47,463 nt of DNA, from NCBI GenBank assembly GCA_913056365.1, contig CAJXLT010000020.1:1-47463 (forward strand), in the 5' to 3' direction. This document shows positions 126 through 13,190 of the stretch, in pieces. The translations under genes and the position numbers were made by a program. How positions within the stretch are numbered: the first letter of the stretch is position 1; each line of letters begins with the position of its first letter. This DNA comes from an uncultured Paenibacillaceae bacterium. GTDB lineage: Bacteria > Bacillota > Bacilli > Paenibacillales > K13. Below the pieces are notes generated by a model. It did not search any database. It was not told the DNA's origin and saw nothing but the letters and a program-made list of their open reading frames with translations.

Positions 126-407
126 AGTGTCCTGCGGATGATAGACGTACAGATCCGTTAATCGTCTCCCGTATGAAGCATAGGGAAGGTGTTTTTTGCA
201 CAGATAATGAACAAGATAAGAAAAGATCGTTATGTTGATTCATTTTTATTATATAAGGGTATAGCATGATGTAGGCCCTTTATTCTGATTTTGTTCGGTT
301 TTTTGCTTCAAAATGAAGATTTTTGTTGTGATATTTAGTATGATGGTACGTAGGGGCTTTAATCGGGTTAACGTGGATGATTACATATAGATGGGGTGAG
401 AAAGAGT
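126..407 (+). other. AT-rich non-coding leader upstream of ppc
   Basis: There is no plausible gene in this stretch. It is AT-rich and contains a small inverted repeat (CTTCAAAATGAAG near 307) and a possible -10 (TATGAT near 340), but no convincing -35 at the right spacing. The ppc promoter is presumably here; I cannot place it with confidence. Confidence 0.4.
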
Positions 408-3197
408 ATGACTGAACTGACTACAGACGTTAAACCAGCAAACACAGTGAATTTGTTGCGGAGGGATGTCCGCTTTCTAGGGAATATTCTAGGTGAGGTT
501 TTGGTCCATCACGGAGGCAATGATTTGCTCGATACGGTTGAGAAAATTCGAGAGATGAGCAAGTCTCTGCGTGCAAACTTCGTTCCCGAGATGCTCGAGG
601 AATTTATGCAAACGATTCGCACATTGCATCCAGATATACGTCATCAAGTTATTCGTGCATTCGCAATTTATTTCCAGCTTGTGAATATTGCAGAACAGAA
701 TCACCGGATACGCCGTAAGCGCGATTACGAGAGAGCTACAGAAGAGACCGTTCAGCCTGGGTCGATCGAAAGTATTATTATGGATTTGCGGGACCGCAAT
801 ATTCCATATGAAGAAGTACAGCAAATTCTGCAAGGGATTTCTCTCGAATTAGTCATGACGGCTCATCCGACAGAGGCGATGCGTCGCGTTGTCCGGGATA
901 TTCATCACCGCATTGCTCAAGAAATGATGCAGCTTGATAACCCGACTTTGACGATGAAGGAAAGAGAGAAGATGCGTCGCAAGCTTATGACAGAAGTACT
1001 CACACTGTGGCAAACGGATGAGTTGCGTGAACGGAAGCCGACCGTTCTGGATGAAGTACGCAATGGTATGTATTATTTTGATGAAACGCTCTTTGAGGCG
1101 CTTCCAGAAGTTTATGCTGAGTTAGAGCGTTGTCTGTCTAAGTATTATCCGAATCATAGCTGGCATGTTCCGACATTCTTGCGATTCGGCTCTTGGATCG
1201 GCGGTGACCGAGACGGGAATCCATCCGTAACTTGGGATATTACTTGGAAAGCTCTTGAACTGCATCGTCAAGTTGCGCTGCGGAAGTACATCGAGAGTCT
1301 CCGCGGACTGCAGAAGAAGCTGTCGTTCAGCACTACGATCGTCAATGTAAGTGACGAACTGTTGGAGTCCATTGCATGGGATAAGCAATGCATTGACTTG
1401 CCATCTGGAGAAGTATGGCACAATAGTGCAGAGCCGTACCGGATCAAGATTGCCTACATGATTGAGAAGCTTCAGAATGTAGGGAACAATCAAGTTTCAG
1501 ATGATGCGCGTTATCTGGATAAGGACCAGTTCTTGGATGAGATTAGATTGATTGATCGAAGCTTGCGCAACCATCACGCGGATAATATTTCTGAGGAGTT
1601 TATTAATGTTCTCGTTCGTCAAGTGGAGTTGTTCGGCTTCCACCTAGTGACATTAGATATTCGCCAACATAGTAAAGAGCATGAAGCAGCGATGACTGAA
1701 ATATTAGCGAACTTGGGTATTGTAGAGGATTACGGATCACTTGGGGAAGAAGAGAAGATTCAACTGCTCCATCGCCTGCTACAAGAAAAACGTCCTTTGA
1801 CATCCTCCTTTACGGGGTATTCTGATTCTACGGAGGAGACTCTGGCTGTTTACCGCACGGTGTACCGCGCACAGCAGGAATTTGGGACTGACTGTATTCG
1901 CCACTACTTGATCAGCATGACGCAAGGCGTGAGCGATCTGCTGGAGGTGCTGTTATTTGCCAAAGAAACAGGCTTGTACCAGCAGCACGTAGACGGTACT
2001 TATACGTGCACACTACAGCCGACTCCGTTATTTGAGACGATTGACGACTTACATGCAGCACCTTCGATCGTGAAGCAATTGTTCGAACTTCCGGCTTACC
2101 GGGCTAGTGTGAAGGCAATGGGCGATATGCAGGAAATTATGCTTGGTTATTCTGACAGCAACAAGGATGGCGGAGCATTGACGGCAAACTGGGAGCTGCG
2201 AGTGGCTCTTAAGGAAATTACACAAACAGCCAAGGCATACGGCGTCAAGCTGAAATTTTTCCATGGACGAGGCGGTGCTCTCGGCCGCGGGGGTATGCCG
2301 CTTAACCGCAGCATAATGGCACAACCTCCAGAGACGATCGGCGGCGGTATCAAGATTACGGAGCAAGGCGAGGTGCTCTCGTCCCGTTATTCCTTGCAAG
2401 GCATCGCATACCGCAGCTTGGAGCAAGCGACCTCTTCTCTGATTAAGGGCGCATTGTTGGCTAGGAATCCACAAAGCCAGGCAGACTTAGACAAGTGGGA
2501 GACGGTCATGCGCGACATCTCGGAAAAAGCGCAGACGAAATACCAAGATCTTATATTCCGCGATCCGGATTTCGTAACCTTCTTCAAGGAGTCTACTCCG
2601 CTGCAAGAGATTGGTGAGCTGAATATTGGCTCACGTCCGTCGAAGCGCAAGAACAGCGACAAGTTTGAAGACCTTCGCGCAATTCCTTGGGTATTCTCTT
2701 GGACGCAAAGCCGCTACTTGCTGCCTGCTTGGTACGCAGCTGGAACGGGCTTGAGAAGCTATGTACAAGATTCTAAGGAGCGCTTGCAGGTGCTCAGAGA
2801 CATGTACGAGCAATGGGGATTCTTCCGATCAACGATCGACAATTTGCAGATGGCGATTGCTAAAGCGGATTTATTGATTGCGAAGGAATATTCGAAGATG
2901 GTTCAGGATGATGTGGTGCGTAACCGGATCTTCGGATGGGTTGAAGAAGAGTACGCATTAACGTCATCACTGATACTGCAGATAACCGGACAAGAAGAGA
3001 TTCTGGACAACGTACCGGTTATTCAAGAATCTATTCGGTTGCGTAATCCATATGTCGATCCGCTCAGCTATATGCAAGTAGACCTACTGACAGAGCTGCG
3101 CGGACTTCGAGAGAAGGATGAGGAAGATTCAGACCTGCTGCGAGAAGTGCTGTTGACGATTAACGGTATAGCAGCAGGCCTTCGGAATACGGGCTGA
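408..3197 (+). CDS. ppc: phosphoenolpyruvate carboxylase
   Basis: The enzyme carboxylates PEP with bicarbonate to oxaloacetate, refilling the TCA cycle; it is cytosolic and usually a tetramer. At about 929 residues it has the family's length. Visible signatures are [12 protein letters not shown] with the catalytic His, [26 protein letters not shown], the glycine-rich loop [12 protein letters not shown], and the conserved C-terminus [11 protein letters not shown] choose ATG 408 because the GGGGTGA stretch at 393-399 gives it a normal spacing; a GTG at 396 is in frame but has no ribosome site. It is transcribed alone, ending in a strong terminator just before sigW. Confidence 0.97.
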
Positions 3198-3220
3198 TCG
3201 AACGTATTAGTATGCGATTA

Positions 3221-3243
3221 CCGGGCCATGCGGCCCGGTTTTT
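3221..3243 (+). terminator. terminator of ppc
   Basis: CCGGGCC-ATG-CGGCCCGG is followed by TTTTT. It separates ppc from sigW. Confidence 0.92.
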
Positions 3244-3271
3244 GGCGCTTTTATCGATAATTGAGTATAAT
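3242..3271 (+). promoter_or_regulatory. candidate housekeeping promoter of sigW
   Basis: TTGGCG at 3242-3247 and a perfect TATAAT at 3266-3271 are 18 bp apart, about 30 bp before the sigW start. The -35 overlaps the T run of the ppc terminator. No SigW-type TGAAAC/CGTA pair is visible upstream of sigW. Confidence 0.6.
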
Positions 3272-3304: not shown

Positions 3305-3877
3305 TTGGAAGGATTGGAGCCCAGATTGGCCAAACTAGCAAGGAATGGCGATCGTGAAGCGTTCCGCGAATTGGTACAGTTGTACAAGGATAAGATGTAT
3401 CATCTCGCATATCGAATGCTGAGCAATAAGCAGGAGGCAGAAGATGTTGTCCAGGAAACCTTCCTGCGTGTATATACGAATCTAAATCGGTATGATGATA
3501 CACATAAATTCTCCACTTGGATTTATCGGATTGCGACCAATCTGTGTATTGACCGGCTTCGCAAGCGTAAGGGCACGTTAAGCTTGGATGCGGAGAACCC
3601 GGAAGGTGAAGGGATAGATGGATATGACATGCTGTCTTCCTCAGATCCTCTGCCGGAACAGCAGCTCGTTTTGTCAGAGACGCAGCAGCTTATTCGTGAT
3701 GCAATTGAGAAGCTGCCAGCCAAGTATAAGTCGATTGTTATTTTACGTTATTTGCATGACATGTCCTTACAGGAGATTAGCAATGTGCTGAACATGCCTG
3801 TTACTACAATTAAGACGCGGGTACATAGGGGGCGGGAAGCGCTTCGAAAAAAATTGGATCAGCGTCACTTTTTTTGA
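3305..3877 (+). CDS. sigW: ECF RNA polymerase sigma factor, SigW type
   Basis: This alternative sigma factor of about 190 residues directs the cell-envelope stress response. Region 2 shows EAEDVVQETFLRVY and FSTWIYRIATNLCIDRLRKR. Region 4 shows KYKSIVILRYLHDMSLQEIS and the helix-turn-helix VTTIKTRVHRGREALRKKL. The likely start is TTG at 3305, spaced 6 nt from a G-rich ribosome site at 3292-3298; an upstream in-frame ATG (3212) lies in the ppc terminator and is not credible. The stop codon TGA forms the first bases of a SigW-type -35 element. rsiW follows 76 bp downstream. Confidence 0.93.
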   Translation: MEGLEPRLAKLARNGDREAFRELVQLYKDKMYHLAYRMLSNKQEAEDVVQETFLRVYTNLNRYDDTHKFSTWIYRIATNLCIDRLRKRKGTLSLDAENPEGEGIDGYDMLSSSDPLPEQQLVLSETQQLIRDAIEKLPAKYKSIVILRYLHDMSLQEISNVLNMPVTTIKTRVHRGREALRKKLDQRHFF

Positions 3878-3900
3878 AACATAATTTGAAGTGGCACGTA
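3875..3900 (+). promoter_or_regulatory. SigW-type ECF promoter in front of rsiW
   Basis: TGAAAC (3875-3880), 16 bp, CGTA (3897-3900) matches the known Bacillus SigW consensus exactly. The TGA of the -35 is the sigW stop codon. Transcription from here would give rsiW mRNA without sigW, feeding anti-sigma factor back on an active sigma factor. Confidence 0.8.
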
Positions 3901-3953
3901 TCGTATAACACAAGCAATCTAACCTCGGATTTCCGGGAAAGGGGAACCCTGTC

Positions 3954-4559
3954 GTGAAATGCAAGGAAGCGATCATTTTCATACATGAATATATGGACGG
4001 TGACCTGAACGAACAGGGGCGAACGGAACTCCGTCAACACTTGACGGATTGTATAGCGTGCAGACAACGTATGGACCAATACACGCGAACGACTGCGCTC
4101 ATACGTTCCATGCCGAGAACGAAGGTGCCTGAGCATCTGACGAACTCGATCATGCAGGCACTTCCTGGCACTTCGAAGCGTACTGCTTGGACGAGATGGG
4201 TCCGCCAGCATCCGGCTGTGACAGCCGCTGTGCTGTTCATTGCTGTCATGCTGATGAGTCTTGTATCCATGTGGGATGGTGACAATCGTTTAATGGTAAG
4301 AGGGAATGACTTGGATCAGTTAGTCATAACGAAGGATCAAGTCATTGTACCGGAAGGGCACACCATTAATGGCGATCTATATGTAGAGAACGGAAGATTA
4401 GTTGTAGAAGGTCAGGTTAATGGGAACCTGGTTGTCGTGGATGGCCAATTGAATCTAGCCTCGACAGCGCTCATCGGCGGAGAGCATTCCGAGATTAATC
4501 AAACGATCGATTGGTTATGGTTCAAGATGGGGGAATGGATGGAAGCGGTCACGCCCTAA
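3954..4559 (+). CDS. rsiW: anti-sigma-W factor, zinc-finger (ZAS) membrane protein
   Basis: It holds SigW at the membrane until envelope stress triggers its proteolysis. The cytoplasmic N-terminus has the zinc anti-sigma motif (His and two Cys in HLTDCIACR). One membrane helix lies around residues 84-103 (TAAVLFIAVMLMSLVSM). The outer part has short repeats (GDLYVENGRLVV, EGQVNGNLVVVDG) resembling a beta-solenoid of polymer-forming proteins. The start is GTG 3954 with GGAAAGGGG about 10 nt upstream. It is paired with sigW and probably also transcribed from the ECF promoter that overlaps the sigW stop. A terminator follows. Confidence 0.92.
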   Translation: MKCKEAIIFIHEYMDGDLNEQGRTELRQHLTDCIACRQRMDQYTRTTALIRSMPRTKVPEHLTNSIMQALPGTSKRTAWTRWVRQHPAVTAAVLFIAVMLMSLVSMWDGDNRLMVRGNDLDQLVITKDQVIVPEGHTINGDLYVENGRLVVEGQVNGNLVVVDGQLNLASTALIGGEHSEINQTIDWLWFKMGEWMEAVTP

Positions 4560-4576
4560 TCCATAATCGGATGAAT

Positions 4577-4619
4577 GAAGCCTCACTTGCTTATTGGAAG
4601 AGCAAGGGGGCTTCTTTTA
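4577..4619 (+). terminator. terminator of sigW-rsiW
   Basis: GAAGCC...GGCTTC with an additional inner TTGC/GCAA stem is followed by TTTTATT. It separates rsiW from cdaA. Confidence 0.85.
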
Positions 4620-10383: not shown

Positions 10384-10439
10384 GAACATATGTATTCGAG
10401 AAGAGAGAGGAGGATTGTGTCGAAGTTATTGCTAGACAA

Positions 10440-10665
10440 GCGCCAGAACTTCTGAGCATATATGTCAATACTTCTGATAGTGTTCTTAGCTGAAGTAGAC
10501 AGTTCTCTAGCAGAACTTGTATATGTGTGAAGAAGTTGACGAGGTAGAGGTGTTCGAATCATTCGGCGGGGACCTCTCGGTCACGTATCCTGACCGTAAG
10601 TTGGAATCAAAAAGGCTGGGCGACCGGCCCGACAAAGTTCCGATGGGATGCATGTATAGCAGGAA
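10440..10665 (+). ncRNA. glmS ribozyme-riboswitch (glucosamine-6-phosphate)
   Basis: The conserved cleavage-site core A|GCGCCAGAACT starts at 10439/10440. Downstream are GTTGACGAGG (10535-10544), TCGGCGGGG, a CGGTC...GACCG hairpin and the closing GCAGGAA (10659-10665), in family order. When GlcN6P is abundant, this RNA cleaves itself and the glmS message is degraded. The first long stem (AACTTCT 10447-10453 with AGAAGTT 10531-10537) encloses an unusually long extension of about 77 nt with its own CATATA/TATATG stem. The 3' boundary is estimated from the conserved end. Confidence 0.92.
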
Positions 10666-12912: not shown

Positions 12913-13190
12913 TAAGAAATTCGTTGACGAGAACGAGTACGCTAATCCCCTTGTTCCCCAGAGAGTTGGCCTTGTGCTGAAAGCCAATGTTCAAGAATTA
13001 GCCGAAAATCCTCTCCGAGAAGGAAAGCTGAAGAAGTTAGGTAAGCTGACCCGGGATCCCGCCGTTAAAAGGGCCGCGTATGATGGTACGTAGTATGAGG
13101 TGCCGTAAAGCTAATAAACATCATGGTTTTTACGGAACAAGGGTGGTATCGCGAGAACTAATCTCGTCCCTTACGGGGCGGGATTTTTTT
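12913..13190 (+). promoter_or_regulatory. T-box leader, isoleucine specifier
   Basis: Stem I carries the AGAGAG bulge (near 12960) and a distal GGCC...GCC arm. The specifier loop GAAA-ATC-CTCTCCGAG puts ATC (Ile) at 13008-13010. The T-box proper, AAGGGTGGTATCGCG, is at 13138-13152. The terminator stem ATCTCGTCCC/GGGGCGGGAT ends in seven T at 13190. Uncharged tRNA-Ile would stabilise the antiterminator and turn on ileS. The 5' edge is approximate. Confidence 0.93.

Follow-up and report, generated by a model that had tools for sequence, protein, structure and literature searches.

The window, by which we mean the whole analysed stretch of 47,463 nucleotides, comes from a genome of 4.65 Mb in 34 contigs. 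On its forward strand, like the promoter elements, ribosome-binding site and terminators described below, it carries sigW (3305–3877; TTG start, TGA stop), encoding the ECF sigma factor SigW of 190 amino acids, and rsiW (3954–4559; GTG start), encoding a zinc-finger anti-sigma factor of 201 amino acids. The start of sigW at TTG 3305 was picked by its ribosome-binding site, being preceded by a run of seven G; rsiW has its own ribosome-binding site, AAAGGGG, at 3938–3944. SigW matched the NCBIfam model NF007223 at 275.6 bits (cut-off 209, E = 2e-82) and a solved SigW chain (5wuq) at E = 4e-57, and scored 235.8 bits against the narrower model TIGR02948, just under its cut-off of 243.1. RsiW, whose zf-HC2 domain (PF13490; 26.2 bits, cut-off 22.2) is encoded directly downstream of sigW, matched none of the NCBIfam models at its cut-off, and its membrane segment was visible by eye only. 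The outer part of RsiW (residues 112–177; 4287–4484) has a weak Bactofilin match (E = 8e-5; 23.2 bits, Pfam cut-off 27.9), and this domain is possibly beta-helix-like. Downstream, rsiW adjoins cdaA on the same strand, and position and sequence suggest that the gene after cdaA is cdaR, while the gene upstream of sigW (ORF 396–3197) is a putative ppc, named by eye from its sequence. An Rfam scan returned nothing at the sigW-rsiW locus; further downstream a glmS ribozyme (10428–10653) and a T-box leader (12915–13174) scored above the gathering score.

The junction between the two genes holds TGAAAC (−35 element, 3875–3880), a 16-nt spacer (3881–3896) and CGTA (−10 element, 3897–3900), read directly from the window sequence, and the TGA at 3875–3877 doubles as the sigW stop codon. 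Upstream of sigW, no SigW-type site was seen in the window, and a consensus scan found a sigma-A-like pair, TTGGCG (3242) and TATAAT (3266–3271) with an 18-nt spacer. This pair (3242–3271) sits just past a hairpin (3220–3243; 8-bp stem, UUUUU) that by its fold appears to be the intrinsic terminator of the upstream gene (−17.1 kcal/mol, z = −2.7, matched by 3 of 200 shuffles) and that was missed by a simple terminator scan. Both elements of the original prediction, namely a TGAAAC-N16-CGTA site built into the sigW stop codon and a housekeeping-like promoter without a SigW pair before sigW, are thus borne out by the sequence.

Taken alone, the window cannot prove the junction site: TGAAAC-N14-18-CGTA has a single match in its whole length, and shuffled windows held 0.39 matches on average and at least one match in 35 of 100 cases, so that the site could be a chance match. 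We compared it with sigW loci gathered on the likeness of their proteins, without regard to the motif, from groups that we take to be the order Paenibacillales and the class Bacilli. A strong SigW match was present in 385 of the 392 genomes sampled from the order, and the loci counted are part of those: 131 loci, four of them from named records, reduced to 128 once duplicates were removed (nine loci in both groups together), which span 45 of 49 genus codes and 9 of 11 family codes by a hand count from the tables and include three identical to named Paenibacillus records, on which our name for the order partly rests. A sample of the class gave a strong SigW match in 90 of 161 genomes, 13 of them in the window's order; 57 of the remaining 77, plus ten named loci (including Tumebacillus, Aneurinibacillus, Caldalkalibacillus, Pseudalkalibacillus and two MAGs), yielded 61 distinct loci of other Bacilli.

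Set aside before the count were six SigW paralogue loci (L023, L107, L129, L133, L134 and L135), all without the junction site; L130, in which sigW is frameshifted though the junction site is present; L131, with the site in neither place; and L132, in which the contig stops inside sigW. From the set of 38 loci that supplied the four named ones of the order, 23 distant ones (L026–L048) were left out. Three of the paralogue loci (L107, L129 and L133) represent second SigW-like genes, some 54–59% identical, in certain Paenibacillales genomes. L131 belongs to a deep member of the order (genome G011) with a SigW of 42% identity and a zinc-finger-like downstream frame that overlaps sigW, and here a SigW-type site was found neither before sigW nor at the junction.

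All 128 distinct Paenibacillales loci carry GAAAC-N16/17-CGT at the sigW-rsiW junction, and 127 of them carry the full ten bases TGAAAC...CGTA, even though the outer T and A were not demanded by the 8-base search. When the first 92 junctions are shuffled with their single-base composition kept, 0.60 junctions with the site are expected, and the reversed pattern was found in the same places in none of 92 Paenibacillales and none of 67 other Bacilli loci. Among the 74 distinct rows with a 16-nt spacer, a T precedes GAAAC in 73 and an A follows CGT in all 74, neither being required by the search; in contrast to the two fixed hexamers, the mid-spacer columns are poor in information. The position of the site relative to the stop codon shifts as well, from the last sense codons of sigW to about 96 nt past its stop (the listed minimum of −134 belongs to locus L157, in which the frame runs beyond the usual stop), and its TGA coincides with the stop in 25 of the 128 loci. 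Since the fusion of promoter and stop codon is found in only this subset and the site is placed variably elsewhere, the fusion looks incidental. A match by chance, or a coincidence of coding sequence at the sigW stop, of the kind that the 35 matching window shuffles allow for, has next to no probability in view of a site that is kept in every relative counted as its position shifts, and that holds both hexamers as the mid-spacer drifts. Together with the shuffles and reversed-pattern controls, the comparison removes the doubt left by the window, and the junction site is confirmed.

The same conclusion is reached at close range. The nearest relative, which is the one further genome from the same genus and family in the comparison, is identical to the window at 76 of 79 junction positions, as against 224 of 391 third-codon positions of sigW and rsiW (Fisher p = 3e-13), and the region before sigW aligns poorly except around the ribosome-binding site. 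The original prediction had proposed an alignment of this junction and had staked itself on the motif not being lost from relatives: the site is in fact kept, in close and in distant relatives alike. The gap between sigW and rsiW has a median of 82 nt in Paenibacillales vs 16 nt in other Bacilli.

Conservation continues past the −10 element. In the window, CGTA is followed by TCGTATAACAC (3901–3911), a conserved extension over the presumed start site; across the order (74 rows), the columns after CGTA reach up to 1.5 bits, and the consensus is CGTATnGTATAnnAC; with CGTA the stretch covers 3897–3911. Downstream of the sigW promoters in other Bacilli, this conservation is far weaker. As a genome-wide operator it found no backing, with seven sites at up to two mismatches (the junction included) vs eight for the reversed control, and reading its GTATAnC as a sigma-A −10 element was dismissed by inspection, the spacing to TTGAAA being about 24 nt. 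The fold of the rsiW leader RNA, compared with shuffles, revealed no structure (z = −0.56).

In the other Bacilli the arrangement is the converse. Of their 61 loci, 59 have the site before sigW, 51–71 nt from the start codon, none has it at the junction, and two have it in neither place, which agrees with the placement before sigW that the original prediction gave for B. subtilis. A single edge of the SigW protein tree, with a support of 0.873, parts the 61 proteins of other Bacilli from 82 distinct Paenibacillales proteins, with no intruder on either side. This distribution would be explained most simply by a single early change in the order, in which SigW autoregulation probably passed from sigW and rsiW jointly to rsiW only.

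A second site just before sigW was found in only three of the 128 Paenibacillales loci (L068, L110 and L111, at about 58, 72 and 93 nt), and L108 has one site 340 nt upstream; a SigW site conserved before sigW, which would have spoken against the proposed wiring, is thus not seen in the order. The classical mark of a positively autoregulated ECF operon, a sigma-dependent promoter before the sigma gene itself, is accordingly absent from the window and from 125 of the 128 loci. The three species with both sites may run a mixed feedback, and because they are nested within the SigW tree, a regain of the upstream site seems likelier than its retention. Sigma-A-like sites, on the other hand, precede sigW in 21 of the 128 loci vs 2.1 in shuffled sequence, while the extended −10 pattern showed no enrichment there (20 vs 17.9 shuffled), and a SigX-like AAC-N16/17-CGAC was rejected as a candidate (0 of 128; 0.7 shuffled).

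These counts bear on a scheme of dual control, in which a weak or distant SigW promoter would also feed sigW, the junction promoter would merely shift the ratio of SigW to RsiW, and the loop would not be purely negative. Apart from the three loci with a site just before sigW, the scheme can draw on a weaker pattern, AAC-N16/17-CGT, which precedes sigW in nine loci (the same three included) vs 3.1 of the 128 in shuffled sequence, an excess that makes some SigW input to sigW possible in a few species. The strict pattern, however, occurs within 1500 nt before sigW in just 3 of 92 loci, vs 1 of 92 on the antisense strand, by which a shared distal SigW promoter is ruled out, and the window and its nearest relative both lack a strict site in this region, poorly as it aligns. 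For the order as a whole we consider dual control unlikely and favour a junction promoter that would act on rsiW without a counterpart before sigW.

The identity of the sigma factor that would read the site was approached through its DNA contacts. In the structure of B. subtilis SigW, as described in the cited report, R175, R172, T171, T168 and K170 contact the −35 element (PMC6713349). The five residues occur under the same numbers in the SigW of the window and are invariant in the 82 Paenibacillales and 61 other-Bacilli distinct proteins. In the window's genome the ten-base motif has 20 sites vs 10 for the reversed pattern, a ratio by which about half of the genome-wide sites may be due to chance; among the sites are those 35–62 nt before genes for pspA, Band_7, Zn_peptidase_2, EcsC and an inositol phosphatase, and pspA is given as a gene under SigW control in B. 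subtilis (PMC3498285). The assignment of the junction site as a SigW-type promoter, already made in the original prediction, is supported by the motif's presence before sigW in other Bacilli and before pspA here, and by the invariant −35 contacts.

The genome also holds 15 further matches to SigW, with E-values up to 0.001, and the promoter could be real and yet be recognised by one of the genome's other ECF sigma factors, which would link another stress response to the shut-off of SigW. B. subtilis SigW and SigX reportedly overlap in the promoters that they recognise (so the title of a 1998 paper), which would add to the case for another reader. Against it stand the occurrence of the same TGAAAC/CGTA type before sigW in 59 of the 61 other Bacilli and before pspA in this genome, the invariance of the SigW contacts (some of these residues being common to other ECF factors), and the different pair, TGCAAC/CGTC, upstream of the nearest ECF paralogue, L002. 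Recognition by another ECF factor is quite unlikely on this evidence, and SigW remains the probable reader. L002 itself (genome G000, contig C2, about 469580–470080) has TGCAAC-N17-CGTC upstream, whereas no such pair was found at the junction downstream of it, and would represent the ordinary wiring within the same genome.

What the junction promoter would transcribe depends on where transcription ends. Downstream of rsiW and before cdaA, a hairpin with a U-run (4577–4618) is by its fold a predicted intrinsic terminator (−22.8 kcal/mol, z = −5.5, matched by none of 200 shuffles), although it too was missed by the simple scan. Of 127 Paenibacillales loci, 123 have a terminator-like hairpin no more than 110 nt from rsiW, where shuffled sequence would give 4.7; in other Bacilli the count is 30 of 56 loci (1.9 expected). 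Because of this strong hairpin, the junction promoter should serve rsiW alone, in keeping with the expectation that the anti-sigma gene would be driven on its own. The cdaA frame opens only about 190 nt past rsiW on the same strand, and it is conceivable that transcripts read through into cdaA-cdaR-glmM, in which case the purpose of the promoter would be to raise c-di-AMP and wall-precursor synthesis, and rsiW would be incidental; the stability of the hairpin here and the similar hairpins throughout the order make this very improbable, and leave an rsiW-only transcript as the expected product.

We thus propose, with a probability of roughly 0.84, that Paenibacillales have a SigW-dependent autoregulatory promoter placed between sigW and rsiW that transcribes rsiW only and gives net negative feedback; SigW's use of the junction site, the transcript ends and the dynamics are what we infer from sequence. 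sigW, with read-through into rsiW, would be made from the housekeeping promoter. In B. subtilis, SigW is described as being held by RsiW up to the destruction of RsiW by PrsW and RasP (PMC3498285); a gene for a PrsW-family protease is present in the window's genome, and control of RsiW by proteolysis is likely here. Envelope stress would accordingly lead, through PrsW-type proteolysis, to the destruction of RsiW and the release of SigW, and freed SigW would turn on its regulon (pspA and others) as well as a monocistronic rsiW mRNA ending at the hairpin after rsiW. As SigW would raise its inhibitor RsiW and not itself, the net feedback would be negative, and the predicted outcome is a lower ceiling and a rapid switch-off when proteolysis ceases.

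To illustrate these dynamics we used a toy model with 400 random parameter sets drawn from guessed ranges. Compared with the ancestral wiring, the rsiW-only wiring had its plateau lowered in 100% of draws; it shut off faster in 99%, overshot more in 90% and rose faster in 86%, and its shut-off was faster than that without feedback in 100% of draws. An overshoot above 1.2, however, was seen in 98% of draws without feedback, 70% with rsiW-only wiring and 15% with the ancestral wiring. The self-limiting pulse foreseen in the original prediction is therefore not established: overshoot does mostly rise above that of the ancestral wiring, which fits the prediction, but a pulse is no signature of rsiW-only wiring, since it is commonest without any feedback, and we rejected it as a special result of this arrangement. 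The predictions that appear robust in the model are a lower plateau, that is, lower gain, and a faster shut-off than under the ancestral wiring.

Combining the wiring with the tree, one may picture that a single replacement early in Paenibacillales put the autoregulatory SigW promoter between the genes and that the order has since kept a negative loop in contrast to the positive one of other Bacilli, that the junction promoter gained a tuning start-site element (CGTATnGTATAnnAC), that the order became a low-gain, fast-off responder, and that L068, L110 and L111 re-added positive feedback. We give this scenario as a whole about an even chance.

The kind of wiring is already known, and sigH-rshA of Corynebacterium glutamicum is a direct precedent: the two genes are reported to be cotranscribed from housekeeping promoters, with a SigH-controlled promoter driving rshA only, and the authors suggest that this promoter may shut the response down quickly (PMC3489674). 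By its sequence anatomy, the Paenibacillales pair would share this wiring with an anti-sigma-only promoter. As described there, the C. glutamicum system differs in its sigma factor, SigH, in the disulphide, oxidative and heat stress to which it responds, and in a promoter that lies inside sigH (PMC3489674). That report covers one species, while the present comparison points to a SigW-RsiW pair whose ancestral promoter has been replaced throughout an order. With B. subtilis sigW-rsiW, the Paenibacillales pair shares orthologous genes, gene order, the promoter motif and probably the proteolytic control of RsiW; in contrast, the cited source lists the B. subtilis genes as one SigW-controlled unit (PMC3498285), and the Paenibacillales site lies before rsiW. 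Among the top-ranked papers of searches in the open-licence literature, none described, by title and abstract, the wiring for Paenibacillales or Paenibacillus. What appears new here is a clean, order-wide promoter replacement in the SigW-RsiW pair, and not the type of wiring.

Two further systems are comparable in part. The E. coli genes fliA and flgM are unlinked. Their likeness lies in an extra sigma-28-dependent promoter of flgM, reported to provide negative feedback, and their difference in that this is no ECF system and that, by the same account, a class 3 promoter raises fliA as well (PMC3861889). In the sigma-B operon of B. subtilis, the relative synthesis of the sigma factor and its regulators is reported to amount to effective negative feedback, but what the cited text describes is a stoichiometry of operon partners and no anti-sigma-only promoter (PMC5207722). 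Positive autoregulation, according to the cited overview, was an early hallmark of ECF factors that later classifications do not require, and about 55% of ECFs are predicted to be autoregulated (PMC8103513).

In one order, then, the shift of a single promoter past a single gene appears to have flipped the sign of a regulatory loop, with no change in the motif or in the residues with which the sigma factor reads its −35 element. With orthologous genes in opposite wiring, and dozens of genera on each side, SigW-RsiW offers a natural experiment in circuit evolution. Methods that seek an ECF motif before the sigma factor's own gene will miss the SigW site of Paenibacillales. For the organisms themselves, the proposed wiring predicts that envelope-stress responses in Paenibacillales would be weaker, and would end faster, than those in Bacillus.
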